Positions 22,575-28,660 of a DNA stretch of 32,755 nucleotides are shown here, piece by piece. Every line of letters begins with the position of its first letter. Within the stretch, counting starts at the first letter, position 1. The translations under genes and the position numbers were made by a program. Origin of the DNA: Chitinophagaceae bacterium (GTDB lineage: Bacteria; Bacteroidota; Bacteroidia; Chitinophagales; Chitinophagaceae); the NCBI GenBank assembly GCA_014379515.1, contig JACMLR010000135.1, positions 1 through 32,755 of the forward strand, written 5' to 3'. The notes below the pieces were generated by a model that was given only the letters and a program-made list of their open reading frames with translations, was not told where the DNA came from and did no database searches.

Positions 22575-23282
22575 ATGATTTCAACTTCAAATAAATACGC
22601 TGTCATAGTGGCCGGAGGATCTGGCAAACGAATGGGAAATGTTACCCCTAAGCAATTTCTTGAGATTCATGGCAAGCCATTGCTGGTATATTCAATAGAC
22701 GCCTTTCTTCTTGCTTATCCCGATATGAAGGTCATTCTTGTTTTGCCTGCGAATTTTATTAAGGTGGGTACTAAACTGGCAGAGGTGTCAGTCGATCCGG
22801 CAAGAGTTCTGTTAACTGAAGGAGGTGAAACGCGTTTTCATTCGGTACAAAACGGACTGCACTCTGTTCCGGCGTCAGCGATTGTCTTTGTGCATGATGC
22901 TGTTCGCTGCCTGATCGGGGTCGACCTGATCCAACGCTGTTTTGAATGTGCACGTGAGCATGGAACTGCGGTGCCCGCTATTGCAGCAACGGACAGCATC
23001 CGGATAATTACTGGCGAACACAATGAAGCTGTTGATCGCGAGCGTGTCAAAATAATCCAAACTCCACAAACGTTTTCCTCTGACATCTTGAAAGTTGCTT
23101 ATCGACAAGAATATCATCACCAATTCACAGATGATGCAAGTGTTGTTGAAAAAGCCGGAATGAGAATTCAACTTTTGGAAGGTGAGCCGACCAATATAAA
23201 AGTAACTCGCCCGATAGATTTACTGCTCGCCGAAAAAATTCTTGCTGATCGAAAAAATAGTATTACTAACGGGACTACCTGA
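22575..23282 (+). CDS. ispD: 2-C-methyl-D-erythritol 4-phosphate cytidylyltransferase
   Basis: YAVIVAGGSGKRMGNVTPKQFLEIHGKPLLVYSI, VFVHDAVRCL and QTPQTF motifs. Track start is GTG 22563; ATG 22575 likely. Confidence 0.95.
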   Translation: MISTSNKYAVIVAGGSGKRMGNVTPKQFLEIHGKPLLVYSIDAFLLAYPDMKVILVLPANFIKVGTKLAEVSVDPARVLLTEGGETRFHSVQNGLHSVPASAIVFVHDAVRCLIGVDLIQRCFECAREHGTAVPAIAATDSIRIITGEHNEAVDRERVKIIQTPQTFSSDILKVAYRQEYHHQFTDDASVVEKAGMRIQLLEGEPTNIKVTRPIDLLLAEKILADRKNSITNGTT

Positions 23283-24207
23283 TCGCTTTACGTTTTAACC
23301 AACGCAGGTACCAGGGAATTCGATTCAAACGTAACGCCGGGTATGTTTCCGTACTTGCCCCGAAACTTCCATAAAAAAAAGCAAGATTCCGAACGTCTGA
23401 TCCTTCGAAATCAAGTGTAAGATTGCTGCCAGCACGTTTTTCAATAAACTGATCGATCAAAAAATGTGAAGCTCCCATTACTTTACTGTTTGGATGATTG
23501 CCCACCAGGATGTAGTACGCGCGATCATGAGAGAAAAAATAAACGCACGACGCAATCAATACGTTTTCCGAAGTATAAACTCCACAAGCAAGTGCTTGTT
23601 CGCGAGCCAGCAAATAGTCGAATAATTTTTTGAATTCATCGTAGTCGCTATCTGTAAGATTTGAAATTGCCTGCATTTGGCTTTTAGATAACTTGATTAC
23701 ATCATCCACATCAATCTCTTCACGATAACTGCAATTAAATTGTCGCGCTTTCTTGCAGTTCCGTTTTATATTATCACGATATTTCTGCGAAATTTCTACA
23801 TAGCTCCAGTTCAACGGAAGGATGTAATTCGTTCTAACGAACATCCCAGTGTCCATCGCTATCAGGTTGTTTTCACGGTTAAGATCGATTTCAATCACCC
23901 TAAACTTCGATGGAATTGCCTGGATGAATGCAGCAACGACGGTGTCGGTGATCCCGGTGCCGAATACACCAAGTGATGCGGAAAATTGTGGTTGATACAG
24001 ATAGGAAACACCATACTTGCTTTTCCAGGTAAGCGGCATTACGTACTCGTAGTTGCCCAGCACTAAGCCATCCCAACCTGGTGACATGAAGTCGAGATAA
24101 AATGAATATCCATAAACTAATCCATTTGATGCATTGTCTATGCATTTGTCCCAGGCCGCGAGATCAATTTCGTTATGCAAAAGATATCGGATGCTTTCAT
24201 CCTTCAT
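23275..24207 (-). CDS. FemAB/GNAT-like acyltransferase fold protein
   Basis: 310 aa; YSFYLDFMSPGWDGLVLGNYEYVMPLTWKSKYGVSYLYQPQFSASLGVFG and GVYTSENVLIASCVYFFSHDRAYYILVG resemble FemAB/GNAT_6-type proteins. ATG directly abuts the upstream stop (TAGATG). Confidence 0.65.
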   Translation of the reverse strand: MKDESIRYLLHNEIDLAAWDKCIDNASNGLVYGYSFYLDFMSPGWDGLVLGNYEYVMPLTWKSKYGVSYLYQPQFSASLGVFGTGITDTVVAAFIQAIPSKFRVIEIDLNRENNLIAMDTGMFVRTNYILPLNWSYVEISQKYRDNIKRNCKKARQFNCSYREEIDVDDVIKLSKSQMQAISNLTDSDYDEFKKLFDYLLAREQALACGVYTSENVLIASCVYFFSHDRAYYILVGNHPNSKVMGASHFLIDQFIEKRAGSNLTLDFEGSDVRNLAFFYGSFGASTETYPALRLNRIPWYLRWLKRKAIR

Positions 24208-27048
24208 CTAAAATGGAAATTTATTTTTTGTAAACTTGCGCAGATCAAACCGGTGAATGTCGATGCTAAAAGAAATCTTCCGAAAAAATTTATTCTCTTC
24301 CGGCACTGTTTTCAAATTATCGCGGAACTCTTTGCTATAGACGAGCGGTGCATAAATATTTACAAGCCCCTGGATTAGCGATAACTGCAAGCCACCCACG
24401 AAAAGGAACCGATTTCCTTCCCATTGCTTCTCCCACGATTCTGCATAGGTTCCTACATCCAGAAAAAGTTTCAGTGGAATTTGCTTCGGTAAGATGGCAG
24501 TTGGGATGCTTGTGGTCAGGTTGATCGCTCCAATCCAATTATCGCTACGACCTTGTAAACCCTGGAACAAATCAGTCCTGAGCTTTAACCCACCATCGCG
24601 GATCATCACTTGTTGACTTTGATATCCGTCATTTTCATTTCTTCCAACAAAGGGGTTACTGTATGTATAATCTTCATAACCGCGGACTGCGGTTAGCTTT
24701 GGCTGGTAGACCTGTGTTTCAAACTCTTTTTCGATCGTTTTCTCTCCGAGGTATCCAAATTTAGCGGCGAAAAACCGGGCAGATGCTCCGCCACCATCGC
24801 CGTAATTAAGAAAATAATTCGCCGTGGCTGACGCACGAAAAAAGCCTTCGCCCTGCTGTAGCTGAAGTTGTAAATCGTAAGGATACAATGCTCGGTATTC
24901 CGTTACACTGAAAGTTAATTGGTTTACATATCGACTTTTTGAATCCGCTCTCTCGGGATAATAATTTGAGTCGCTTAATTTCTGTACATAGTTGAAACCC
25001 CGTTCCCTGAGTAGGAACGATTTCAATTCAATCCACGATTCCCGCGAACTCTGCAGGGATCGCGGTTTAAATACAAATTTCAAGGCGGGCGCAAATTTCA
25101 CGAAGCCGCCATAGATTTTAGATCCAACACTATCGGTGCCGGACATCGTCGAAAATTTCGAAAACCCAACTGAAGCCTGTATTCGATAAAAATTGTTGTC
25201 AGGAAACCAATTATAATTGACTCCACCAGTGCCGTTTATTTGTTTACTTGTAAATCCAAATAATGGGACGGCAACAAAACGAAATCTATCCGGTGGTAAA
25301 TTATAATTGTGCACCAATAACCCAAGCATAAGGCCGTCGTACTTATTCCGTCCAATCGCAGGAAGGAAATTAATGTAGGAGTATTTATCAGTATCCCGAA
25401 GATTGAAAAGAAATGCGGGTTTAACTTTTTTTCGTTTAATGGTTTCCGGAAACAGATTGCCCGTCGTTGAGATGTCTTCTTTAAATGTTGCCAACTCTTT
25501 TGCATTGTTCTTTTCAAATGCCGCAAAGAAATCAGCGGGCTGCGGATGTCTAAATTTCCATTGACTGTAATAGTTCTGCATTATCGCATCAAACTTTTCG
25601 CGGCCAATAGAATCCTCTAACTTTTTTAATAAGTTGGCCGTTTTAGAGTAAGCAACCAGAGCATAATTTATTCCCGTAAAATCCTGGGAGGAAGTAATCA
25701 CCGGCTGATCTTTTTTCAAAGTTGCGAGCATATTGATCGCAAGCAGGTTTTCATCATCAGGTAACCGTTTCGCGATAAACGGCCCGGTTGATTCCTGCCA
25801 GTCTTTTCCGTGGTATTTCCACTGTTTATAACGTTCATCGTAGTAGCTGTTAACACCTTCATCCAACCACGGATGATCGCGCTCATTACTGGCCAGTATC
25901 CCGTAGAACCAGTTGTGGCCAATCTCATGTTGCAGAACAATATCCAACGTTTTCAAATCAGGCATTGCTGAAATGCTTGTAATTGTTGGATATTCCATTC
26001 CGCCTTCAACTCCAATCTTCGCTTGCACGGCACTGATAGTATTGTATGGATATTCGCCAATTAATGCAGACCGAAAATGAACAGCATCTTTAATCATTTG
26101 CATGCTCTTACTCCACATTTCTGATTGTCCGTGTGAATAGAAGCTGTATGCGTCAACAGTTCTTCCCGATGTTAATTTTATCGTGTCATACAATACGCCG
26201 AAATATTTATCGGCGAACCAGGCGAAGTCGTGCACATTATTTTGAATGTATCGGAGTGTCTTTGTTTGTGCTGACGATTTGATTTCGCCATCATATTTTG
26301 TTACAGGGGTTTTTTTCTTCGGTGCGCCAAATGTTTTAACCTTAACCGGTGGAGGAGGAGGTGTGCCTTTCTGCCGCAACCAGTTTTTTTCATTTTCATT
26401 TTGTAGATCGCCCGTAGCGGCAACAACATAGTTTTCTGGTACAGTGATCTGAACATTGTACGTCCCAAATTCTCCATAAAACTCACCCAATTCCAGGTAA
26501 GGCATTGGGTGCCATCCGGTTTTGTCGTACACGGCAGGTTTAGGATACCATTGAGTAGCTTGATATGATTGACCGGTATGGCCACTCCTTGAAAAATTTG
26601 CAGGAAGTTTTACGTGGAAAGGAGTTGTGATCTCCACATCTTTGCCCGGAGCGAGTGGCGCATCCAACATTACTTTTACCAAATCAATATACAATGGATG
26701 ATCTTCCGTTTTCAAGCCGTTGTTCCCGGAACGGAAATCAAGGCGATTTATATAACCCCGTTCATCCCTTTCAGCGAAGTAAAAATCAGTACGGCCATTT
26801 TGCAATAGTTGTTCACTGAAAGCGGTTCGATCATTTTTATATGCATTCGGCCATAATTGAAACCAGATAAAGTGAAGTGTATCGCGGGAGTTGTTTTTAT
26901 AACGCAACTTCATAAACCCGTCCAGGCTATGTTCCTGGTCATTGAGCGAAACATCAATCGTGTAGTCGAGCGATTGCTGCCAGTAATCCTGTTGACTATA
27001 AGCAGATACATTGATCGCAATGAAAAACAGGATGAGCAGTTTTTTCAA
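24208..27048 (-). CDS. M1 family (gluzincin) metallopeptidase with a C-terminal Omp85-like beta-barrel
   Basis: GGMEYPTI and HEIGH-x18-E (25858..25929) M1 motifs; residues encoded by about 24211..25416 show barrel-like alternation with VRGYED (24670..24687) and FLDVGTY (24445..24465). TTG 27048 (LKKLLILFFIAINVSAYSQQ signal peptide) is a better start than ATG 27153, which lies inside the upstream gene. Confidence 0.85.
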   Translation of the reverse strand: MKKLLILFFIAINVSAYSQQDYWQQSLDYTIDVSLNDQEHSLDGFMKLRYKNNSRDTLHFIWFQLWPNAYKNDRTAFSEQLLQNGRTDFYFAERDERGYINRLDFRSGNNGLKTEDHPLYIDLVKVMLDAPLAPGKDVEITTPFHVKLPANFSRSGHTGQSYQATQWYPKPAVYDKTGWHPMPYLELGEFYGEFGTYNVQITVPENYVVAATGDLQNENEKNWLRQKGTPPPPPVKVKTFGAPKKKTPVTKYDGEIKSSAQTKTLRYIQNNVHDFAWFADKYFGVLYDTIKLTSGRTVDAYSFYSHGQSEMWSKSMQMIKDAVHFRSALIGEYPYNTISAVQAKIGVEGGMEYPTITSISAMPDLKTLDIVLQHEIGHNWFYGILASNERDHPWLDEGVNSYYDERYKQWKYHGKDWQESTGPFIAKRLPDDENLLAINMLATLKKDQPVITSSQDFTGINYALVAYSKTANLLKKLEDSIGREKFDAIMQNYYSQWKFRHPQPADFFAAFEKNNAKELATFKEDISTTGNLFPETIKRKKVKPAFLFNLRDTDKYSYINFLPAIGRNKYDGLMLGLLVHNYNLPPDRFRFVAVPLFGFTSKQINGTGGVNYNWFPDNNFYRIQASVGFSKFSTMSGTDSVGSKIYGGFVKFAPALKFVFKPRSLQSSRESWIELKSFLLRERGFNYVQKLSDSNYYPERADSKSRYVNQLTFSVTEYRALYPYDLQLQLQQGEGFFRASATANYFLNYGDGGGASARFFAAKFGYLGEKTIEKEFETQVYQPKLTAVRGYEDYTYSNPFVGRNENDGYQSQQVMIRDGGLKLRTDLFQGLQGRSDNWIGAINLTTSIPTAILPKQIPLKLFLDVGTYAESWEKQWEGNRFLFVGGLQLSLIQGLVNIYAPLVYSKEFRDNLKTVPEENKFFRKISFSIDIHRFDLRKFTKNKFPF

Positions 27049-27082
27049 CAGGTATATTTTTTCAAAAATAAGAGATTGATTC

Positions 27083-28660
27083 TTATTTGAAGTTTCCTTG
27101 TTTATCGAGGAGTTCGAACAGGTTGTTGAGATTTGTGTCGATCGATTCTTCAAGAGCCGCCTTCAAATCTTCCGGATACGGGTGTCTGAACTTCCATTTG
27201 TCGAAATAATTATGCATCGCCTTATCCAATGCAGGCTGACCTACCGAATTTTGTACGATATAAAGCCACACAGCCGTCTTAATATATACAACGATCCCGT
27301 ACTCATCTTTATTGGCAAAGGCGGTAGAAGAAGTATTGATCGCTTTTTTTGCGGGCAGGTTGTTTAGAGCACCGAAAATCCGATCGAGGAATTCGGGAAC
27401 GGAAAGACTTTTTAATTCATTTGGCACTTCCTTGCCGAAGATCGCATTGCTTCGATATTTTGTTGCTTCATACCTGAACTGATAAAATGTATTCAGTCCT
27501 TCATCCATCCAGGGGTGGTCGCGTTCGTTTGTTCCGAGTATGCCGTAAAACCAGTTGTGCCCAACTTCGTGTGTGATGACTGCATCCAAACCTTCTCTGC
27601 CTTCATCTGGACTTGTAATGAGTGTGATCATTGGATATTCCATGCCGCCACTCGATGCGTTCTTCGGTCCTTCAACGGCCTGCGCTGCCGGATACGGATA
27701 CTCACCCAGCCATGCGGAGTAATTTGTTACAGCATCTTCAATAAAGCTGATGCTGTTTCGCCATTCCTTATTTCCATTAGGTTGGTAAAATGAAAAGACG
27801 TCGGTAATCTTTCCAGATGGCAATAACAATGTGTCATATTGAATAACAAAATCCTTATCGGCAAACCATGCGAAATCATGAACATTAGAAGCTGTGTAAT
27901 TCAATCGTTTCAACTGAGCTGTTGCAGTGGCCTGGTACGGATGAACGGGGCCCGCCTCCCGGTCACGGTAATTGGCTGCGCCGATTGTTTTATATAAGTC
28001 AAACTCTTTCCTGGTTTGCAAAATCCCTGTTGCGCCAACAACATAGTCGGCCGGAAGCGAAATAGTTACATCGAAACTGCCATACTCACTATAGAATTCA
28101 CCCTGATCGAGGTACGGCATCGGATGCCAGCCCTTTTTGTCGTACACCGCAGGTTTCGGGTACCATTGACAAATAAAATATTGCTGCCCGTCATGACCTG
28201 ATCTTGAAAAGTATTCTGGTAATTTAACAACGAAAGGAGTTTTGATTTGAGTCTTCGATCCTGGCAATAGGGGAACCGACAATAATAATTTCACCACGTC
28301 GATATGTTCGGGATGCGGTTCTACAATTACCTTCCTTCCATCAATCTCAAAATTCAGGCTATCGATCCATCCGGCTTCTTTGTTGCGAAAGGATTTTCGT
28401 CCGGTGCGATCTGCCGTTAATTGTTTTGCAAGCGCGGTTTTATCATTCTTGTAAGCGTTCGGCCAAAGATGAAACCAGATATAATGAAGTGTATCTGGTG
28501 AATGATTGAGATAATCGACAGCGATATTGCCATGGAGCGAATGCGCCTGATCGTTTAATGTTACGTCAATGCGGTAATTGACTTCCTGTTGCCAGTAATT
28601 AGTTTGAGAAATACCGTCAATGCTGACGAAAACTGACAGTACGAACAACCATTTATACAT
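27083..28660 (-). CDS. M1 family (gluzincin) metallopeptidase, barrel-less paralog
   Basis: 525 aa with signal peptide, SGGMEYPMITLI and HEVGH-x18-E (27500..27571); aligns with the first part of the adjacent longer M1 protein. Confidence 0.92.
   Translation of the reverse strand: MYKWLFVLSVFVSIDGISQTNYWQQEVNYRIDVTLNDQAHSLHGNIAVDYLNHSPDTLHYIWFHLWPNAYKNDKTALAKQLTADRTGRKSFRNKEAGWIDSLNFEIDGRKVIVEPHPEHIDVVKLLLSVPLLPGSKTQIKTPFVVKLPEYFSRSGHDGQQYFICQWYPKPAVYDKKGWHPMPYLDQGEFYSEYGSFDVTISLPADYVVGATGILQTRKEFDLYKTIGAANYRDREAGPVHPYQATATAQLKRLNYTASNVHDFAWFADKDFVIQYDTLLLPSGKITDVFSFYQPNGNKEWRNSISFIEDAVTNYSAWLGEYPYPAAQAVEGPKNASSGGMEYPMITLITSPDEGREGLDAVITHEVGHNWFYGILGTNERDHPWMDEGLNTFYQFRYEATKYRSNAIFGKEVPNELKSLSVPEFLDRIFGALNNLPAKKAINTSSTAFANKDEYGIVVYIKTAVWLYIVQNSVGQPALDKAMHNYFDKWKFRHPYPEDLKAALEESIDTNLNNLFELLDKQGNFK

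Follow-up and report, generated by a model that had tools for sequence, protein, structure and literature searches.

To our knowledge, fusions of an enzyme to an Omp85-type barrel are few, and they are of the patatin and PF00149 types. In the patatin-Omp85 proteins PlpD and FplA (type Vd), a soluble enzyme lies N-terminal to a 16-strand Omp85 barrel within one chain. Earlier regarded as secreted, the enzyme domain of PlpD has been shown to be periplasmic, as are the POTRA regions of Omp85 proteins (PMC11116518). In the "Metallo" Omp85 subfamily of Heinz and Lithgow (2014), an enzyme domain replaces the POTRAs, and these proteins were discussed as possible periplasmic proteases (PMC4104836). 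The domain in question, PF00149, is termed a metalloprotease domain in that survey, while its Pfam name is calcineurin-like phosphoesterase, which is no protease family. Omp85 proteins also share signature motifs. The Arg of (V/I)RG(Y/F) in loop L6 bonds the Asp of (F/G)xDxG on strand 13, the same strand in BamA, TamA, and FhaC, and in BamA and TamA the Phe of the strand-13 motif bends toward a conserved Gly on strand 14 (PMC4490367).

Here, we investigated a locus in a window of 32,755 nucleotides (the whole stretch of DNA analyzed, contig JACMLR010000135.1 of a Chitinophagaceae bacterium), where an M1 metallopeptidase fused to an Omp85/BamA-like outer-membrane barrel had been predicted from the sequence alone. 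The predicted coordinates, 24208..27048, are correct. The original prediction named no strand; the gene is carried by the minus strand in an open frame spanning 24208..27153, and every C-terminal stretch quoted in the prediction is found in the minus-strand translation. A plus-strand reading of 24208..27048 was ruled out, as the frame is full of stops. The start codon is likely the TTG at 27048, which we prefer because the in-frame ATG codons lie far downstream and any residues encoded ahead of 27048 would run into the end of the upstream gene. A clear signal peptide follows immediately after this TTG. The mature chain would begin with Gln (Q-rule) at base 26994, from which mature residues are numbered throughout. 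Most homologues share this layout, with an [ASGT]Q pair near the mature start in 52/63. The features of the locus are as follows.

23275..24207, minus strand: GNAT/FemAB-like gene, a near miss to PF13480, whose start abuts the stop codon of the M1-barrel gene
24208..27048, minus strand: M1-barrel coding sequence, likely TTG start, 946 aa, stop at 24208-24210; an open frame with same-length homologues in many genomes
26995..27048, minus strand: signal peptide MKKLLILFFIAINVSAYS, assigned by eye
25468..26994, minus strand: M1 peptidase part, mature residues 1-509 (Pfam PF01433; Foldseek matches to M1 aminopeptidases)
25987..26004, minus strand: GGMEYP, residues 331-336; G332, E334, Y335, and P336 invariant (n = 57)
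25858..25929, minus strand: HEIGH-x18-E zinc site, residues 356-379; H356, E357, G359, H360, and E379 invariant (n = 57)
25384..25467, minus strand: short linker from M1 part to barrel, residues 510-537, ~28 residues; 27-34 residues (one of 20) in close relatives
24262..25383, minus strand: predicted 16-strand beta-barrel, residues 538-911 (AlphaFold2; Foldseek)
24538..24750, minus strand: long loop joining strand 11 to strand 12, where Omp85 proteins have loop L6, residues 749-819 (DSSP of the model)
24676..24687, minus strand: VRGY, residues 770-773, with the Arg in only 8/57 homologues
24640..24642, minus strand: Arg785 (GRN), invariant in 57/57
24451..24465, minus strand: FLDVG, an FxDxG motif on strand 13, residues 844-848; F/Y in 57/57, D in 50/57, G in 49/57
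24391..24393, minus strand: Gly868 on strand 14, invariant in 57/57, matching the conserved strand-14 Gly of BamA/TamA (PMC4490367)
27083..28660, minus strand: tandem M1 paralogue lacking the barrel, 525 aa, active-site motifs intact, directly upstream of the M1-barrel gene

The only Pfam match in the chain is to PF01433 (Peptidase_M1), at 55.2 bits against a cut-off of 27.7, and 18/18 aligned members match it as well. Both M1 motifs named in the original prediction, GGMEYP and HEIGH-x18-E, are present, and Tyr444 and Tyr449 of the M1 part are also invariant across the 57 homologues. The GXMEN exopeptidase motif reads GGMEYP, with invariant Gly and Glu and with Tyr instead of Asn in all 57. 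As the active site is intact, the M1 part is likely to be catalytically active. A Foldseek search with the peptidase part returned M1 aminopeptidases. Among the matches listed, the best by length-normalized score is the two-domain M1 enzyme of Deinococcus radiodurans (PDB 6kp0 and 6iff), with TMt values of 0.70-0.71. The Deinococcus enzyme has 432 residues and no barrel.

AlphaFold2 modeling of the mature protein, using a 57-sequence alignment, gave a mean pLDDT of 91.3 and a pTM of 0.89, with 16 strands within residues 538-911. Modeling the barrel domain alone with 37 sequences gave the same barrel (pLDDT 90.1, pTM 0.86). The barrel fold and strand order are thus predicted with high confidence, and the whole-chain pTM of 0.89 suggests that the two parts pack against each other in a defined way. 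A Foldseek search of the whole PDB with the barrel shows that the best 50 matches all belong to the Omp85 superfamily (BamA, TamA, Sam50, and CdiB), with E values of 2e-8 to 1e-6 and a probability of 1.00. No other barrel family appears among these 50. The TM-scores to Omp85 structures are moderate, with TMq of ~0.40-0.50 by query length. The C-terminal ~400 residues therefore have, as predicted, a BamA/TamA-like shape in the models, including the 16 strands and the long loop at the L6 position.

The signature motifs are only partly retained. The FxDxG strand claimed originally is real, and, together with the strand-14 Gly, the L6 position, and the predicted barrel fold, it is shared with BamA, TamA, and Sam50. 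VRGY, which was also put forward as evidence, is present in the window protein yet is no family feature, as its Arg position is mostly Asn or Lys elsewhere. We dropped it as a diagnostic motif and regard it as local to the lineage of the window. The invariant Arg785 lies 14 residues past the VRGY Arg, and this conservation suggests that it could be a candidate stand-in for the missing L6 Arg. Unlike BamA, TamA, and Sam50, the M1-barrel protein has no POTRA domain, does not conserve the Arg of VRG(F/Y), and shows no match to PF01103, either in the window protein or in its homologues.

The sequence kinship of the barrel points elsewhere. No Pfam model matches over the barrel in the window protein or in 37 homologues, apart from two weak matches to DUF5686 (2/37, best E 2.2e-4; the window protein itself has none). 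A profile match to BamA-type barrels, which would have supported the prediction, was likewise absent at any significant level: the barrel profile had no match among PDB sequences, and hhalign gave a non-significant 19% over 37 columns against Bacteroidota TamL-type Omp85 barrels and nothing significant against PF00149-type and BamA-like barrels. In contrast, hhalign against DUF5686 (PF18939) gave 89% (E 2e-6, 210 columns), a result that suggests kinship only and not membership; the control barrels, PorP and a TonB-dependent receptor, scored 0.1-0.4%. DUF5686, found in Bacteroidota, is the nearest sequence relative of the barrel, and its proteins are typically ~820-880 aa and encoded by separate genes (loci L232-L261). 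We found no mention of DUF5686 in the literature searched. Sequence places the barrel close to DUF5686, and the predicted structure places it close to Omp85. The predicted Omp85 assignment holds for the predicted fold and the strand-13/14 motifs but not for the sequence profile or the L6 Arg. We therefore use the term Omp85-like and refrain from assigning the barrel formally to Omp85, given these two results and the absence of POTRA domains.

No POTRA domain is present in the window protein, as only the 28-residue linker lies between the M1 part and the barrel, and the proposal that the peptidase occupies the place of the POTRA domains is borne out by the predicted architecture. The linker length varies, at ~98-128 residues in most other families versus 27-34 (one 20) in close relatives. 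Beyond the close relatives, the region separating M1 from the barrel includes in most families a further segment of ~85 residues, which the window protein lacks and which is probably beta-rich, as judged by eye (columns 624-720 of alignment A1, loci L013-L035; linker region of A2). Compared with PlpD and FplA, then, the enzyme is an M1 peptidase rather than a patatin lipase (Pfam finds no patatin domain), and the POTRA domain that PlpD retains is missing. PF00149, the domain of the "Metallo" subfamily, is also absent from the window protein. The same genome separately encodes a PF00149-Omp85 protein of ~1214 aa (L269:509-4150, G000 contig C81). The M1-barrel protein adds another enzyme type to the known fusions of an enzyme with an Omp85-like barrel.

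Next, we surveyed the M1 and barrel pair across genomes of the class and found it to be common and usually single copy. A single-sequence scan of the genome contigs found no relatives; an alignment-based scan did. The barrel profile matches 266/395 sampled class genomes (67%), nearly always once per genome. All but ~5 of the ~150 matches listed lie in frames long enough to hold an M1 part as well, and the M1-fused frames are ~900-1070 aa. In a separate sample of the phylum, 51/52 matching genomes came from the same class, plus one weak match. A chance origin of the architecture is excluded, because the profile recurs at this frequency and almost always as one M1-fused frame. The protein is thus not the isolated chimera it might have seemed, as the fusion is kept stably in single copy throughout much of the class; this wide spread within one bacterial class also sets it apart from PlpD/FplA. 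Relatives include Niastella, Puia, Terrimonas, Neolewinella, and Hymenobacter, with the nearest kin of the window protein in Niastella, and a host within the Chitinophagaceae is accordingly most likely.

We also looked for the barrel outside the M1 context. Two short candidates proved to be a contig edge and a broken gene, and a third (G704, 420 aa, E 5e-4) is a weak and unconvincing match. In Phaeodactylibacter xiamenensis, a tandem pair of complete M1-barrel genes occurs, encoding 992 and 1021 aa (L134:5986-12017). At L122:5926-8931 and L262 (G142), the M1-barrel gene is split over several frames, either as a broken gene or through assembly error.

In a tree of the M1 parts, all ten sampled barrel-less copies like the upstream paralogue group as a single clade (100/100) next to the barrel-bearing clade of Chitinophagaceae (94/73), and other barrel-bearing lineages fall outside both. 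Copies of the barrel-less clade occur in Niastella, Flavitalea, Terrimonas, and others. Since the barrel-less copies form one clade and other barrel-bearing lineages lie outside it, the tree is most simply read as showing an ancestral barrel that a duplicated copy lost in a single ancient event. The GNAT-like gene is a conserved neighbor in Chitinophagaceae, where the order of sugar transferase, M1-barrel gene, and GNAT-like gene is kept.

We propose that the protein is probably an outer-membrane-anchored M1 zinc aminopeptidase on the periplasmic face, with an Omp85-like barrel and with the peptidase in the POTRA place, that trims nearby N-termini. It would be a Sec-exported outer-membrane protein composed of a two-domain M1 zinc aminopeptidase, a short linker, and then the 16-strand barrel. 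The barrel would lie in the outer membrane, its N-terminal end facing the periplasm, and the peptidase would hang below the mouth of the barrel, at the site that POTRA domains occupy in other Omp85 proteins. We place the M1 part in the periplasm because it lies at the POTRA end of an Omp85-type barrel and because the enzyme domain of PlpD is periplasmic (PMC11116518). There it would trim the N-termini of peptides or of unprotected proteins near the outer membrane. The barrel would serve mainly as an anchor and perhaps also as a peptide conduit or a substrate-presenting surface. The architecture is well supported, and we infer the periplasmic placement, the catalytic activity, the substrates, and the role of the barrel.

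Of the two locations first suggested, a barrel-tethered periplasmic protease or a self-secreted surface peptidase, the PlpD analogy favors the former. Self-secretion, in which the barrel would carry its own peptidase to the cell surface in a type Vd-like manner, agrees with the original PlpD model and its identical domain order, and no sequence feature forbids export. However, the patatin domain of PlpD itself proved to be periplasmic (PMC11116518), the linker has only ~28 residues, and M1 is a large folded domain, so we regard this route as very unlikely. A barrel of the DUF5686 kind would be a 16-strand Bacteroidota barrel acting as a plain anchor without insertase-like properties, its likeness to Omp85 having arisen by convergence or very distant descent. 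On the peptidase side, this overlaps with our preferred explanation. DUF5686 is the sole sequence-profile link of the barrel, through the hhalign result and the two weak Pfam matches, whereas the strand number, loop position, and strand-13/14 motif are as in BamA/TamA and the best 50 structure matches contain no other barrel family. We consider it rather unlikely.

The same BamA/TamA-type fold, FxDxG motif, and strand-14 Gly could instead mark an active insertase or translocase of the Omp85 type, with the M1 part processing the chains it handles by N-terminal trimming or removal of stalled outer-membrane proteins. A widespread and almost strictly single-copy gene would fit such a role. The protein nevertheless lacks POTRA domains and mostly lacks the canonical L6 Arg, the gene is absent or undetected in about one-third of the class, and the solved BAM complex of Flavobacterium has no M1-barrel subunit, none of BamG, BamH, BamM, and BamP being described as one (PMC12611786). 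An active insertase is therefore unlikely in our view, and the tethered periplasmic aminopeptidase is the reading we carry forward.

We found no description of an M1-barrel protein in the literature searched (subscription papers and further database annotations lay outside its scope), in line with the original prediction, which knew of no characterized M1-Omp85 protein. In the 2014 survey that covers ten Omp85 subfamilies (PMC4104836), the word peptidase does not occur in the main text, nor is an M1 fusion mentioned there. The barrel has no Pfam model, although it is detected in 67% of the sampled class genomes, and DUF5686 is a Bacteroidota family still awaiting description. Furthermore, the M1-barrel protein can serve to test the role left to an Omp85-like barrel when both POTRA domains and the canonical L6 Arg are missing.

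An N-terminal pyroglutamate is thought to shield exported Bacteroidota proteins from aminopeptidases (PMC10653852). Trimming of unprotected N-termini near the outer membrane would fit this idea. Tying the M1-barrel protein to this shielding is speculation, and there may be Q-rule species without an M1-barrel gene. A bolder version, which we hold to be quite improbable, is an Omp85-type machine whose barrel handles or takes up polypeptides while the M1 part trims N-termini in passage, amounting to class-wide N-terminal quality control. If true, such a machine, with an aminopeptidase as part of its own chain, would contribute to the pressure from periplasmic aminopeptidases that has been proposed to explain pyroglutamate protection in Bacteroidota. 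As a tethered peptidase, the M1-barrel protein appears to be a common envelope enzyme of these bacteria, so far unstudied, and it is a direct candidate for a periplasmic aminopeptidase bound to the outer membrane of Bacteroidota.
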